37,269 nucleotides of DNA from a virus: positions 1-37,269 of the IMG/VR virus record IMGVR_UViG_3300028883_000024. One strand, written 5' to 3'. The stretch's first letter is position 1. Each line of letters starts with the position of its first letter. Shown here piece after piece: positions 4,918 to 37,269 of this stretch. Made by a program: the position numbers and the translations under genes. The notes beneath the pieces are model-generated. The model did not search any database, was not told the origin of the DNA, and was given only the letters and a program-made list of their open reading frames with translations.

Positions 4918-5120
4918 GTTCCGCTCTTTCTCAGCCTTTCGTATCGGGCGAAAACCAGATCGGCATATTCGGATGCCTCAGTTGCCCGTCTGAACGTCTT
5001 CCGACTTGTCCGGCGCCTTCCGATAGCGTCCAGGAGGATCGCCTTATATCGCTTCCGGCCATATCGATCGAGAAACCGGATATTATGATCCGTACCGCTG
5101 ATGCTCACTGCATGGCTCAA
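4914..5120 (-). CDS. Hypothetical basic protein, 68 aa
   Basis: This small, strongly basic protein (RRRTSRKTFRRATEASEYADLVFARYERLRKSG) has a helical C-terminus. It overlaps the initiator gene by ATGA at its start and the Pol X-like gene by ATGA at its end, so it is made between two replication proteins. Binding to nucleic acid is plausible from charge. No family is recognised. Confidence 0.72.
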   Translation of the reverse strand: MSHAVSISGTDHNIRFLDRYGRKRYKAILLDAIGRRRTSRKTFRRATEASEYADLVFARYERLRKSGT

Positions 5121-5947
5121 AAGACACTCTCCTGCTGCAATACCGGAACGGACGCCAGGAACTTCTGCATTTCGGCTTCAACGTCCACATCGCCATCCCA
5201 GAAGTCCTGCATGGTCAGGCTTGCCCGCATGCGATGGGCCCGACAGCGCTCGTTCTTCTCGGACCAAGGCTTCCTGCACAGCGGGCAGAGCTGATCCACA
5301 GGTACAAAGTCGGGCGGATCCGGCCAGCCCTCTTCCAGAAAGCGAACGAGCCAGCCGGCGCCCTGCGCCTTCCCGTTATCTTTCATCTGCCGGTAGACGT
5401 TCAGTGCATGCTCAATGCGCTCGGAGGGAAGATCAAAGACCAGTTTCTCAGCGACACCACGAGAAACACCGGCCTCCTGGAGAAGCTGTGCATTTTTCTG
5501 CACTGGAGCTGTGCATTTTTCTGCACTAATTTCATCTCCCCCCACACCCCCCTCTAAAGACTCATTAAGTAGCAGATTAGAATCTTTATTAAGAGAGTCT
5601 TTGTTAACTACTACTAAGGGCTGTGCATTTTTCTGCACTGAAATGTCCGGACATTTCCCGGAGGCAGGAAGAGCGTCGAAGAAGAGCACAAGATACCCGG
5701 GCTGACGGGATTCCCAACGCAGCGGGACCATTTCGGACAACCCACGTAGGTGCTCATAAAACGCTCGGCGCTTCAATCCTGTGATCTCCAGGAGATTCTC
5801 CAGACTGATCGTGTCCGTCCTCAAGCCCTGATGCTTCCAGGAAAGGCCCTTGAGACGGAGATAGGTCACCAGCATCGATGACGGGATCGACGTGTCATAT
5901 ACAATGGGAGCTTCGACGTTGACATATTTCGGTGGAATGGAAATCAT
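5117..5947 (-). CDS. Replication initiator with winged-helix N-terminus
   Basis: The 276-residue protein has three parts. An N-terminal winged helix (about 1-95; SSMLVTYLRLKGLSWKH and LENLLEITGLKRRAFYEHLR) fits phage and plasmid initiators. A low-complexity linker follows (about 100-150, Asn/Lys/Ser/Leu-rich). The C-terminal half has a helical segment and a CPLC...C-x2-H cluster (C221, C224, then CRAH) that probably binds zinc. The linker DNA is AT-rich and holds three perfect repeats, as in lambda O. The protein likely binds these repeats and opens the origin. Start 5947 overlaps the previous stop by ATGA. No helicase motifs are seen, so host helicase is presumably recruited. Confidence 0.75.
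   Translation of the reverse strand: MISIPPKYVNVEAPIVYDTSIPSSMLVTYLRLKGLSWKHQGLRTDTISLENLLEITGLKRRAFYEHLRGLSEMVPLRWESRQPGYLVLFFDALPASGKCPDISVQKNAQPLVVVNKDSLNKDSNLLLNESLEGGVGGDEISAEKCTAPVQKNAQLLQEAGVSRGVAEKLVFDLPSERIEHALNVYRQMKDNGKAQGAGWLVRFLEEGWPDPPDFVPVDQLCPLCRKPWSEKNERCRAHRMRASLTMQDFWDGDVDVEAEMQKFLASVPVLQQESVF
5485..5639. repeat. Three 20-bp iterons inside the initiator gene
   Basis: Perfect copies lie at 5485-5504, 5508-5527 and 5620-5639. The core is GTGCATTTTTCTGCAC, with inverted arms GTGCA/TGCAC. The first two are 23 bp apart and the third is 112 bp further on. On the coding strand the copies are read in two different frames (QKNAQ twice, AEKCTA once), so the identity is kept for the DNA and not for the protein. 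Confidence 0.88.
5640..5657. promoter_or_regulatory. Perfect 18-bp palindrome beside iteron 3
   Basis: GAAATGTCCGGACATTTC is its own reverse complement and starts one base after the third iteron. It may bind a dimeric protein at the origin. It is inside coding sequence. Confidence 0.6.
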
Positions 5948-6261
5948 GCCGCTGCAGCCTCCAAATCGAAGAAGCTGAGCTGGTTCGTGAGCGGATGTGC
6001 CGAGCGGAGATCGACCAGCAGGTCGATGAGCTCCACAAAGCGGTGATCAAACGCCTCGGTCCAGCGGACAGCGGCATACTCCAGGCCGTTATCATCACAA
6101 ATCGTCTCGATAGCCTCCTCCTGAATGAACAAGCCGATGCTCTTCTGCGGATATTCGTCCACGGGAACGGCCAGATAGACTTCCTCCGGGTAAACCGGAT
6201 GAATAAGCAGGCCCACTTCATGGCTCGCTCCCGGGATCCTTTTGAAACGTAGTGAGCTCAT
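5944..6261 (-). CDS. Small protein with C-terminal clamp-binding-like motif
   Basis: The product has 105 residues. ATG 6261 overlaps the upstream stop as ATGA, and the end overlaps the initiator start as ATGA; an in-frame ATG at 6294 lies inside the upstream gene. Most of the sequence is an acidic alpha/beta fold that I do not recognise. The tail reads QLSFFDL (Q94-L100), followed by EAAAA. This matches the bacterial beta-clamp binding consensus QL[SD]-[LF]-F. A protein made just before the initiator and able to touch the sliding clamp could recruit or block host polymerase. The motif is visible; the role is inference. Confidence 0.75.
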   Translation of the reverse strand: MSSLRFKRIPGASHEVGLLIHPVYPEEVYLAVPVDEYPQKSIGLFIQEEAIETICDDNGLEYAAVRWTEAFDHRFVELIDLLVDLRSAHPLTNQLSFFDLEAAAA

Positions 6262-6551
6262 AGCAGCCTCAACTGGGCGACAGGAACCAGGCACTCAACG
6301 TACTTCTGACTCTCCGGATCCCTCTTCACACTTTCAGATACCTTGATCCTGGCCGGCTTTTCCTCGAGAAGCTCGTTCACGCGGCCGCATACAGACGCCA
6401 GGCGGATCCCGGTCATGTAATGAATATCCATGCGGGAAATTGGTCGCCTGGCACGCAATATGCACCTGTACACGCGTTCCTTCTGCGTCAGGGCTTTCCC
6501 GGACGCAGTGTGCTCCGCGTAAGCGAGAGAGGATGTCAACGATGATGTCAC
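6258..6551 (-). CDS. Winged-helix DNA-binding protein
   Basis: The 97-residue product begins at GTG 6551, six bases after GGAGGG; the in-frame ATG at 6572 lies upstream of that ribosome site. The core (LTQKERVYRCILRARRPISR, then IHYMTGIRLASVCGRVNELL) is a helix-turn-helix with a wing and a basic C-terminus. It is the first gene downstream of the regulatory block at 6567-6616 and is coupled to the genes that follow. It may regulate the early operon or help at the origin. Confidence 0.75.
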   Translation of the reverse strand: MTSSLTSSLAYAEHTASGKALTQKERVYRCILRARRPISRMDIHYMTGIRLASVCGRVNELLEEKPARIKVSESVKRDPESQKYVECLVPVAQLRLL

Positions 6552-6566
6552 TGCAAACCCTCCTCT

Positions 6567-6616
6567 CCACATGGGCTATTCAAAAATCGCCCACATGGGG
6601 GATAGAACATATGTTC
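6567..6616. promoter_or_regulatory. SOS-type box plus paired direct repeats
   Basis: GAACATATGTTC at 6605-6616 is a perfect 12-bp palindrome and an exact match to the Gram-positive LexA box GAAC-RNRY-GTTC. Two copies of CCACATGGG (6567-6575, 6591-6599) lie 24 bp apart between it and the GTG of the winged-helix gene, suggesting a second operator. A clear -10/-35 pair was not found here. Regulation by LexA or a LexA-like phage repressor is inferred. Confidence 0.6.
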
Positions 6617-6926
6617 AACTTTTGGCACCATTCCCTCGGGGTGCCGCCGCTTGATTCTTTTGATACTCGCCATTTCTGATCTGTCCGACCAGGTTCATAC
6701 GATGCTGCAGCCTGTTCTCCGTGATCAGAAGGGCGTCTTGAACGCGCAGAAGTGCCTCGGTATCAAGGGCTTGTAGATCCTCTAACCCGTTGATCGCATG
6801 GTTTGACAGACGTTTCCGCTCGCGCTCGTGCTCAATGATGATCTGATGCAGGCGACCGAGCAGATAAGCTATTGCCAATGCAAGAAGCAACATCGACGAA
6901 AGGATGAGCATATAAAACCTTTCCAT
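6615..6926 (-). CDS. Membrane-anchored coiled-coil protein, 103 aa
   Basis: The ATG at 6926 follows a GGGGGTGTGTG ribosome site. Residues 4-25 form one hydrophobic helix (FYMLILSSMLLLALAIAYLL), followed by a long charged helix with coiled-coil character (EHERERKRLSNHAINGLEDL onward) and a basic end. The topology, one N-terminal anchor plus cytoplasmic or periplasmic helix, is shared by Rz-like proteins and many small phage membrane proteins, but position in the early operon argues against lysis. No family is recognised. Confidence 0.75.
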   Translation of the reverse strand: MERFYMLILSSMLLLALAIAYLLGRLHQIIIEHERERKRLSNHAINGLEDLQALDTEALLRVQDALLITENRLQHRMNLVGQIRNGEYQKNQAAAPRGNGAKS

Positions 6927-7030
6927 CACACACCCCCTATCCACATCAAGAAAAGGAGCGTGACGCCCAGCAAGATCAGAATGAGAGTAAGTGCAAGGGC
7001 GAGGCGCACAAGAAACTTCATCTTTTCCAT
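6926..7030 (-). CDS. Tiny membrane protein, 34 aa
   Basis: ATG 7030 follows a textbook TTAGGAGG ribosome site at seven bases. The product is basic at the start (MEKMKFLVRLA) and then one hydrophobic helix to the end. Its stop overlaps the next ATG as TGATG. It is the first gene of the minus-strand early operon. The ribosome site is stronger than for most genes here, so it is likely expressed. Confidence 0.7.
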   Translation of the reverse strand: MEKMKFLVRLALALTLILILLGVTLLFLMWIGGV

Positions 7031-8169: not shown

Positions 8170-8218
8170 AAACCTGCGCGGGAACGTCAGGTTACAGGTT
8201 CGATTCCTGTGCGGGTCA
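8170..8218 (+). other. Candidate attP: 3' end of a tRNA gene
   Basis: A perfect T arm is visible: ACAGG (8194-8198), loop TTCGATT, CCTGT (8206-8210), followed by GCGGGTC as a 3' acceptor strand and discriminator A. The preceding AGGTT fits a variable loop. No matching 5' half is present, and no U33 anticodon loop can be drawn, so this is a fragment. Integrases commonly target tRNA 3' ends, and attP typically adjoins int. The host tRNA identity cannot be told. Confidence 0.6.
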
Positions 8219-8295
8219 CTCGGTAAAACAGAACCGGTATTCTGGATTGAAGAGTCAACCTATTCTGTTGGTAAGGTGCAGTAGCTTTATCCGAA

Positions 8296-8991: not shown

Positions 8992-9225
8992 TTATTCCTC
9001 TTCTTCCAGGCGAACAATCAATTCATCAATGCCAACGCCAAAAACCTCACACAGTATATCCAGCGTCTCCAGGGAGATAGCTGTCACGTCGTGATGAGCA
9101 AGGCGATGGGCTGTTGGATATGAAAGCCCCGAGTTTCTCATGAACTCGGTGATTGTCCATCCTTTTGCCTCCAGCAGCTCGGGGACCCTAAGTTTTACGG
9201 TCCCGGGAGCCATCATGACATCCAT
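8992..9225 (-). CDS. XRE-family repressor
   Basis: This 77-residue protein is almost entirely a Cro/C1-type helix-turn-helix (VPELLEAKGWTITEFMRNSG, then LSYPTAHRLAHHDVTAISLETL and a leucine-rich fifth helix). It has no C-terminal peptidase domain, so it would not self-cleave as CI does; induction must work another way, for example by LexA sites or an antirepressor. ATG 9225 has AAGGAGG close upstream. It is divergent from the plus-strand operon across 134 bases of promoter and operator DNA, the usual layout of a lysogeny switch. Confidence 0.85.
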   Translation of the reverse strand: MDVMMAPGTVKLRVPELLEAKGWTITEFMRNSGLSYPTAHRLAHHDVTAISLETLDILCEVFGVGIDELIVRLEEEE

Positions 9226-9246
9226 TCAACCTCCTTTTCTGATGAC

Positions 9247-9275
9247 AGGGTACAGTATATTCCCTCTTGTGTCAA
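9247..9275 (-). promoter_or_regulatory. Promoter of the XRE repressor
   Basis: The minus strand has a consensus TTGACA (9275-9270), a 17-base spacer and TACCCT (9252-9247). The -10 is weak. It faces away from the promoter at 9297-9326 with the AT-rich operator block between them. Confidence 0.45.
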
Positions 9276-9296
9276 GCCCAGTTTATAAATTGGTAC

Positions 9297-9326
9297 TTGA
9301 CACACATATAAACTATAGTTTATAAT
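9297..9326 (+). promoter_or_regulatory. Consensus sigma-70 promoter of the plus operon
   Basis: Both hexamers are perfect: TTGACA (9297-9302) and TATAAT (9321-9326), with an 18-base spacer. The start would fall near 9333, giving a short leader to the lipoprotein ATG at 9360. Such a strong promoter must be repressed in the lysogen. Confidence 0.85.
9307..9324. promoter_or_regulatory. 18-bp palindromic operator
   Basis: TATAAACTATAGTTTATA is its own reverse complement and fills the spacer and part of the -10 of the promoter above. A related half (AGTTTATAAA, 9280-9289) lies 27 bases upstream near the repressor's own promoter, which would allow autoregulation. Binding by the XRE protein is inferred from position and symmetry. 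Confidence 0.7.
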
Positions 9327-9359
9327 GCAGACATAAGATACCGAACAGGAGAGAAGATC

Positions 9360-26265: not shown

Positions 26266-27569
26266 CACGCCACCCCCGCGTATTCCTCAAAGAGCATGCC
26301 GAATTGATCCACGTCAATGCGAGAGCCGATGTTATTTGTGATGCCTCCAACGCTCCGGCTGTTGTCCACAGAGGACATACCGCCGGCCATGCCGCCAACA
26401 GTTGCATTGAGGGCTGGTTGGAGGTTATCGATTCCAGAGGTAAAGCCCTGGGCGAGCCCCGCGGCCATCTGGGCGCCGATGCCCATGGTGACCTTAGATG
26501 GGGAAGCAATGCCAAGAGCCTCACGGATTGCCCGAGGAAGGCGCTCTACCTGCTCTCGGAACCATGTGAGGATTGCCTCCCAGCGCTCGCGGATGCCGTC
26601 ACGCAGCCCTTCAATCAGGGCAACGCCTGCATCCCGGAATGAGCGGATCCGGGCACGGATAATTGGAACAACCGTTCGGATAAAAGCAGAGATGTTCTCC
26701 AGAGCGTATTTGATGTTCTCGATGGCAGTAGGGAGGTTTTCCCCAAGCCATTCACCGGCAGACTGGGCCCATGCGATGATCGACGGACCGTATTGTGTAG
26801 CAAGCTCCGCCAGAGGAGTCAGAATGGCGTTCAGCGCCGGCAGGAAAGCTGCTCCGATCTGGTCTTTCAGGTTCTGGGTTGTAGCCTGGAAGCGGGCGAG
26901 GTTTGCGGCCGTTGAATTGCCCTGTTCTCCAACGCGACCCATGGTGATCTGGCCTTGTTCCATCACGGCCTGCATGAAGGCCTGCTCACGCGTCAATCCC
27001 TCAGTAGACTCCATGAGCTCATCGATGCGCTCACGTACAGCAGAAGATGAAATACCGAAGCTGTCCAGGCGCTGGATGGATTGGTTGGCGAGCATGAGAG
27101 CGAAGTTTTCCATCGATCCAGTTGCATCTTCGCCCATTGCCATGCCAAGTTGGGTGGCCATTTCCGCAAGAGAAGCCGCCTCTTCCGTTGAATCGGCGAG
27201 CCCCATTGCCAGGAAGCGGTTACCAGCCTGCATGAGATCGCCGTCAGAGACCATGCCCTGGGTAGCGTCACGCAGCTGATTCATGGCGTCAACAGCATCA
27301 CCGCCGACTGAATCAACCAGGCGATCAAAGGTGGCAATCGTGTTCTCGAGACCTGCGGCACCAGTGATCATGTCACGGACACCGTATGCAACGGCGTCCA
27401 GAGCACGCATGCCGAAACTGGCCAGCATGTTGCCTACAGCAGTCTGGATGGATCCACCAAGACGCTGCATGACGCTCGAGGTTTCTCTCTCGGCACTGTT
27501 CAGATCTCCGCGCAATCGCGAGTTGTCACCACGGATGAGGACAACTGCATCACCGAGCCGAATTGACAT
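26265..27569 (-). CDS. Tail tape measure protein
   Basis: The 434-residue protein has a long helical N-terminus with Ala/Gly-rich helices, a middle hydrophobic region and the tape-measure end signature GIASPSKVTMGIGAQMAAGL. By the usual 0.15 nm per residue it predicts a tail of about 65 nm, short for a siphophage. It starts immediately after the frameshifted chaperone stop. It sets tail length and is ejected with the DNA. Confidence 0.9.
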   Translation of the reverse strand: MSIRLGDAVVLIRGDNSRLRGDLNSAERETSSVMQRLGGSIQTAVGNMLASFGMRALDAVAYGVRDMITGAAGLENTIATFDRLVDSVGGDAVDAMNQLRDATQGMVSDGDLMQAGNRFLAMGLADSTEEAASLAEMATQLGMAMGEDATGSMENFALMLANQSIQRLDSFGISSSAVRERIDELMESTEGLTREQAFMQAVMEQGQITMGRVGEQGNSTAANLARFQATTQNLKDQIGAAFLPALNAILTPLAELATQYGPSIIAWAQSAGEWLGENLPTAIENIKYALENISAFIRTVVPIIRARIRSFRDAGVALIEGLRDGIRERWEAILTWFREQVERLPRAIREALGIASPSKVTMGIGAQMAAGLAQGFTSGIDNLQPALNATVGGMAGGMSSVDNSRSVGGITNNIGSRIDVDQFGMLFEEYAGVA

Positions 27570-36923: not shown

Positions 36924-37269
36924 TCAATATCCTCGGTGTGATGTGGCCCGGCGACTTACCGGCCTGGCCAGCTTGTTGAACGCCCCTGAAGAAGCGTCTA
37001 CCTGATCGTCATGAGCTGCATTCGGGAAGGCACACAGCTCATCCAAATAGCCATAATTCCACGGTGCGCGCAGGAGATACACGTTCCCTGCTTCCGCCTG
37101 TGCTGCAAACGGTTCTGCCCGGACCTCTTTCTTGCCGGTGGGGCGCTCAGCCCGTGCCGTAAAGCCGGCAAGATTACGGATCGTTGCCTGGGCGCTGTCC
37201 TTGCCGCCACTGCCTGGCTCCTGCTCAATCCACACTGTTCGATTGGCCCACTTCTCGAGGTCGATCTCT
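36924..37269 (-). CDS. terL: Terminase large subunit, C-terminal part (same gene as 1-1191)
   Basis: This is the other side of the circular cut. Positions 37142-36924 hold the last 73 codons; 37143-37269 repeat the first 127 bases of the window. The segment reads VWIEQEPGSGGKDSAQATIR and ends NAAHDDQVDASSGAFNKLAR, the standard end of the RNase H-like nuclease domain. The HDDQVDA aspartates belong to the metal-binding site that cuts DNA at the end of packaging. Confidence 0.95.
   Translation of the reverse strand, partial: EIDLEKWANRTVWIEQEPGSGGKDSAQATIRNLAGFTARAERPTGKKEVRAEPFAAQAEAGNVYLLRAPWNYGYLDELCAFPNAAHDDQVDASSGAFNKLARPVSRRATSHRGY
37143..37269. repeat. Right copy of 127-bp end repeat
   Basis: Identical to 1-127. 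It should be counted once in the circular map. Confidence 0.95.

Follow-up and report, generated by a model that had tools for sequence, protein, structure and literature searches.

A putative theta-replication origin, marked by three exact iterons, in the linker of a phage gene for an orphan protein with a probable helix-turn-helix

Positions 5117-5947 of the analyzed window, which is a whole virus record of 37,269 nucleotides, encode on the minus strand a protein of 276 residues (open frame and translation) that we regard as a putative replication initiator. A probable helix-turn-helix (HTH) is located at about residues 47-73, followed by a linker at about residues 95-155 and by a helical C-terminal part with a Cys/His cluster; the candidate origin DNA described below lies in the coding sequence of the linker. 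Both ends of the record carry the same exact 127-bp repeat (1-127 and 37143-37269), which reads as a complete circle or a circularly permuted genome, and the genome is therefore taken as a circle of 37,142 bp. The phage encodes portal, major head and tape-measure proteins, an integrase, SbcC/SbcD-like proteins and a RecU-like resolvase; a helicase or helicase loader was not recognized among the proteins scanned. The portal has distant matches to actinophages, and both the portal and the Gp3-like neighbor are without relatives in IMG/VR. The phage also carries a complete tRNA-Asn(GTT) gene at 2583-2655. A sequence resembling a tRNA 3' end (GGTTCGATTCCTGTGCGGGTCAC, 8180-8219), directly after the tyrosine integrase gene, is likely the attP core, judging from its sequence and position; no match to it was found in 398 genomes of one phylum.

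Three identical 20-bp iterons (GCTGTGCATTTTTCTGCACT, plus strand) are located within the linker-coding part of the gene, at 5485-5504, 5508-5527 and 5620-5639. The second copy starts 23 bp after the first and the third 112 bp after the second, so that copies 1 and 3 are read in the same frame (VQKNAQ on the coding strand) and copy 2 in another (AEKCTA). Copies 1 and 2 have 21 bp in common, and the identity ends at the repeat edges. The core of the iteron is itself an inverted repeat, with the arms GTGCA and TGCAC separated by 6 bp. Throughout the genome the iteron occurs exactly three times, with no further copy within three mismatches and a chance expectation of zero according to shuffles; the three copies are the sole family of perfect direct repeats (at least 16 bp, copies within 400 bp), and a second iteron cluster is absent from the genome. 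When synonymous codons were permuted with the protein sequence left unchanged, none of 500 trials reached the 12 in-gene 10-mer pairs that are observed at 23-bp spacing (mean of the trials: 0.38). Since this permutation never reproduces the repeats, the iterons are kept as DNA and are unexplained by repeats in the protein.

The sequence between copies 2 and 3 includes a putative DNA unwinding element, whose best 60-bp window (5553-5612) encodes the Asn/Lys-rich linker VNKDSLNKDSNLLLNES. In a nearest-neighbor stability analysis of the 37,142-bp circle, this window (z 4.7) is exceeded in instability by only one 60-bp site, at 9280, in a divergent promoter region. An unstable AT-rich segment thus adjoins the iterons: 5556-5614 has a G+C content of 29%, compared with a genome mean of 56%, and contains an 8-bp inverted repeat (5556-5563, AAAGACTC; 5595-5602, GAGTCTTT). 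A C-rich tract, about TCTCCCCCCACACCCCCCTC, is found on the plus strand at 5535-5554, between copy 2 and the AT-rich segment. On the other side, the perfect 18-bp palindrome GAAATGTCCGGACATTTC (5640-5657) abuts copy 3. The genome has two perfect palindromes of 18 bp, the other one at 9307; hence the length of the palindrome by itself is unremarkable, and it is the position that is remarkable. The same 16-bp core is present in 11 IMG/VR contigs, four of which (L024, L026, L030 and L031) have more half sites within 150 bp, and the palindrome may serve as a second or accessory site, bound by the initiator or by a host factor. In contig L030, the linker of an HTH initiator gene (6186-6809) carries CGGACATTTTGTCCG iterons in two frames, and the core of our palindrome lies within that array. 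DnaA boxes were not found near 5485-5657. A sequence-only reading of this DNA had described the anatomy of the site, i.e. exact iterons with inverted arms in two frames and kept as DNA, around an AT-rich segment with an inverted repeat and followed at once by a palindrome, and each of these elements was recovered in our analysis.

The encoded protein has no significant match in Pfam, PHROG, NCBIfam or PDB, and searches of IMG/VR, GTDB, phages and plasmids with tblastn and back-translated peptides revealed no homologs; nor was its C-terminal motif AGWLxR...EGW found as a DNA pattern in IMG/VR. Two weak matches were rejected as relatives, one from a Tepidanaerobacter genome, which lies in the frame of an unrelated membrane protein, and one from an Aneurinibacillus genome, which has in-frame stops. 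Matches of the N-terminal 95 residues to Phage_rep_O (PF04492) and to the O-like PHROG family are not significant (E 0.21 and 0.11, respectively), and the full protein does not match them; the profiles of the HTH_36 and phrog_270 phage initiators do not match the protein either, and for RepA_N and DnaD-like initiators there is neither a Pfam match nor a significant fold match. Residues 47-73 (ISLENLLEITGLKRRAFYEHLRGLSEM) align to the HTH in a profile of eleven phage initiators with an E value of 0.005-0.015, which lies above all 100 shuffles and is a weak, generic match, with 44% identity to one profile member (L133). Because a higher score was obtained by a different HTH protein of this phage, the match indicates a helix-turn-helix only. 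An AlphaFold model from a shallow alignment has low confidence (mean pLDDT 60) and predicts helices at residues 23-38, 49-56, 60-72 and 146-206, i.e. at the expected positions of the HTH and the C-terminal domain, while the linker over the origin is itself of low confidence. A Foldseek search with this model returned nothing significant; the entry 4pt7 ('Structure of initiator') appeared at an E value of 3.3. The winged helix that had been proposed is therefore supported weakly, and as a helix-turn-helix, by a weak match and a low-confidence model.

Because the protein is an orphan, we searched for the DNA instead, i.e. for pairs of TGCAGAANNNTGCA copies no more than 34 bp apart in GTDB genomes and IMG/VR. 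The search yielded 68 stretches in GTDB genomes and 49 in IMG/VR; by our own estimate under uniform composition, about one is expected by chance in the genome collection. Many of the matches are of another nature: simple tandem repeats, operators of repressors, or arrays that we cannot explain. For instance, 24 IMG/VR contigs share a conserved paired array, about CTTGCAGAAACTTGCAAGCGTTATGTTGCAGAAAAGTGCAAG, with which no obvious gene is associated. A distinct set, however, lies in the middle of genes for replication initiators (L078, L133, L093, L074, L076, L147 and L083). All seven match PHROG replication-initiation, O-like or DnaD-like families; L083 matches only phrog_186 (4e-5), and its two repeats have no 10-mer in common. 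The iterons of the initiator group are spaced 19-24 bp apart, L074 being set apart with its closest exact pair at 24 bp, and they occur in mixed frames in L078, L133, L093, L147 and L076. In L078 the iteron core (TGCAGAAAAATGCAC, an exact 15-mer) occurs in two exact copies at a spacing of 24 bp, besides which there are partial copies at 22-23 bp. Stretch L016 contains the exact iteron twice, directly after a gene with weak matches to replication-initiation, O-like and DnaD-like families, and it is the only place in IMG/VR where exact 16-mer matches to the iteron form a pair. Single 16-mer matches lie mostly in unrelated coding sequence and were rejected as chance.

A second sample was drawn blind to repeats: eight initiators of named phages were taken by protein similarity alone, and a ninth record (C3_41T2LP), which holds only a 94-residue HTH gene, was set aside. 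In six of the eight (BK5-T, GJ44, vB_LspM-01, Cruim01, Skulduggery and HU1), the gene contains iterons of its own, different sequence at residues of about 93-149, and none of 500 permutations of synonymous codons reproduced them. The result for phi31 is marginal (19 of 500), and the initiator gene of LE1 has no in-gene iterons. The record of BK5-T annotates the repeat region. In Lysinibacillus phage vB_LspM-01, five iterons of the type GGGTATTCAGGAA, spaced 21-22 bp and read in three frames, are located in a gene annotated as 'hypothetical protein' (1004-1807), which by its sequence is likely an unannotated initiator together with its origin. The three Pseudomonas phages Cruim01 (986-1735, CCTATTCGGAAAA), Skulduggery (989-1753, CCCCTTCGGAAAAC) and HU1 (1004-1717, CTTCGGAAAA) have iterons in the initiator linker in two frames, and where their iterons are related, the recognition helices are nearly identical (LSNSRVSEII / ISNSRVSEII). 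Further cases, with iterons that differ again, came from a broader sampling of initiator-like genes in genomes of one phylum. Taken together, the repeat-blind sample and the set from the iteron search suggest that an HTH initiator with the origin in its linker is a recurrent and apparently common plan, in which mixed reading frames are common.

Given these results, we consider it highly probable that 5485-5657 is a theta-replication origin of the phage, situated in the linker of its own putative initiator gene; an origin within the initiator gene had already been proposed from the sequence. This reading is based on exact DNA repeats in two frames that the protein does not explain, on the second least stable DNA between them and, as the main support, on the comparison, because iterons of the same type and spacing are found in the linkers of recognized initiators. 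Several observations count against it: the protein is an orphan with a weak HTH match, the fold searches are not significant, the GC skew cannot be told apart from an effect of gene direction, it is unusual for an array to have three iterons and a gap of 92 bp, and palindromes of this type are also probable repressor operators in other phages.

The last point leads to an alternative in which a repressor, or the protein itself, uses the repeats as operators, so that they tune transcription and not the start of replication. Regulator families (phrog_8/3/4) indeed match 10-11 of the 65 open reading frames that overlap pairs of this palindrome class. In seven stretches, among them L109, L110 and L124, the start of an XRE-type repressor gene overlaps paired TGCAGAAATCTGCA / TGCAGAAAAATGCA sites; these sites are probable operators and fall into the palindrome class of our iterons. 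In the phage analyzed here, however, the copies lie only in the middle of the gene, no copy is found close to a promoter or to the Cro/C1-type HTH gene at 8992-9225, the divergent promoter at 9.2-9.36 kb has a different palindrome of its own, and the AT-rich segment between the copies would be left unexplained; we thus rate a role as operators as improbable. The region 9226-9359 adjoining the Cro/C1-type gene is probably the operator region of a regulator, as its sequence suggests: besides the least stable DNA of the genome (9280), it holds the 18-bp palindrome TATAAACTATAGTTTATA (9307-9324) and the repeated AGTTTATAA.

About equally improbable, in our view, is that the initiator binds here at a control, switching or lytic-mode site while the active origin lies elsewhere. 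Such an arrangement has a parallel in phage SPP1, where two regions bound by gp38, oriL and oriR, are separated by about 13 kb (PMC6316719), and both the least stable DNA, at 9280, and the skew minimum, at 6.95 kb, lie outside our site. Against this stands the lack of a second iteron cluster in the genome, and 9280 falls in the promoter region between divergent genes, so that 9.28 kb was rejected as a rival origin on account of this promoter and its operator-like palindrome. The detrended GC skew has its minimum at 6947, about 1.4 kb from the site, and its maximum at 26919, 20.0 kb further round the 37.1-kb circle; genes point leftward to the left of the site and rightward to the right of 7.1 kb. 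Skew minimum and gene layout fit an origin nearby. A check of the skew had been suggested beforehand; here the skew is inseparable from the direction of genes and transcription, which gives the same signal.

Two further explanations are very improbable. That the repeats matter as a flexible peptide linker or represent a recent duplication without function would agree with the low complexity of linkers in such proteins and with the adjacency of two copies, but not with two frames that give different peptides, an identity that ends sharply at 20-21 bp, a third copy 112 bp away, and synonymous permutations that never yield the repeats. Iteron-like arrays can also serve in partition or packaging. 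No result of our analysis suggests a packaging, recombination or partition site here; the putative HTH initiator gene, the unstable DNA between the copies and the pattern across phages point to replication instead, and the attP-like tRNA sequence lies elsewhere, after the integrase at about 8180-8219.

For an origin at 5485-5657, the following course of events can be proposed if lambda O, SPP1 gp38 and pSK41 Rep are taken as models. The 276-residue protein would bind the three iterons via its N-terminal helix-turn-helix, and each iteron, an inverted repeat with an A-tract center, is probably the site of a dimer. Binding could load torsion on the AT-rich DNA at 5553-5612 between the iterons and thereby melt it, and the C-terminal part would then recruit a helicase loader or helicase of the host, which we assume because neither was recognized among the scanned phage proteins. 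From the site, replication would proceed in both directions, in agreement with the divergent arrangement of the genes. Binding, melting, helicase recruitment and origin activity in the window are all inferred by this analogy.

The architecture of an origin inside the initiator gene is already known. In ori-lambda and in the Stx phages, iterons that are imperfect inverted repeats with an A-tract lie in the middle of the initiator gene O, and an AT-rich region that melts adjoins them (PMC7466680); the likeness to lambda O had been noted from the sequence. In contrast to our three iterons with the segment between them, lambda and the Stx phages have an unbroken row of four to six, flanked by the AT-rich tract on one side; lambda O has the partner P, the iteron sequence differs, and our protein matches the O family only below significance (E 0.11-0.21). 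The oriL of SPP1, inside gene 38, likewise combines direct repeats and an AT-rich unwinding element in the gene of the replisome organizer (PMC6316719), but SPP1 possesses oriR as a second site, its own loader gp39 and the helicase gp40, while the phage analyzed here has one cluster and no loader or helicase recognized among the proteins scanned. In the staphylococcal plasmid pSK41, four Rep boxes are located centrally in rep and bound by the N-terminal domain, with the ori doubling as the coding sequence of the central linker (PMC5703833), a plan that our gene would share; pSK41 Rep belongs to the RepA_N family, to which our protein has no match. There is also a likeness to initiators of the HTH_36 type (L078, L133, vB_LspM-01, Cruim01, Skulduggery and HU1), which have an N-terminal HTH and linker iterons, spaced 19-24 bp, at residues of about 94-150 in more than one frame. 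Their iterons, however, form contiguous arrays, in several cases (L078, vB_LspM-01) followed by an AT-rich, Asn-rich linker, and our protein cannot be aligned to them beyond the HTH. New in this phage are thus an orphan protein with an iteron of its own, a palindrome that abuts copy 3, and a melting segment enclosed by iterons instead of lying at the side of an array. We see in these features variants on a known plan and no new kind of origin.

More speculative is the idea, which we put forward tentatively and with considerable doubt, that linker iterons follow a recognition code: initiators without homology beyond the HTH would use GTGCAGAAAA(A/C)TGCA(C) when their recognition helix begins with GLKxR, and in the present phage the division of the array by the melting segment, together with an abutting palindrome of a second type, would make up a two-signal variant of the in-gene origin. 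All four proteins with the iteron GTGCAGAAAA(A/C)TGCA (our protein, L078, L016 and L133) start the recognition helix in this way, a coincidence noticed after the fact; among about 50 other initiators examined GLKxR does not occur, and the wider sample gave no new case.

If the preferred reading of 5485-5657 as an origin is correct, a phage initiator that is missed by every family model has been found, and an orphan phage gains an assigned origin and initiator. The result supports the rule that short perfect DNA repeats in mixed frames, in the middle of an HTH gene, are the mark of a phage origin even where protein homology fails. Because a search with the iteron only led to recognized initiators in unrelated phages, besides other sites such as repressor operators, this rule could help to find origins and unannotated initiators at scale.
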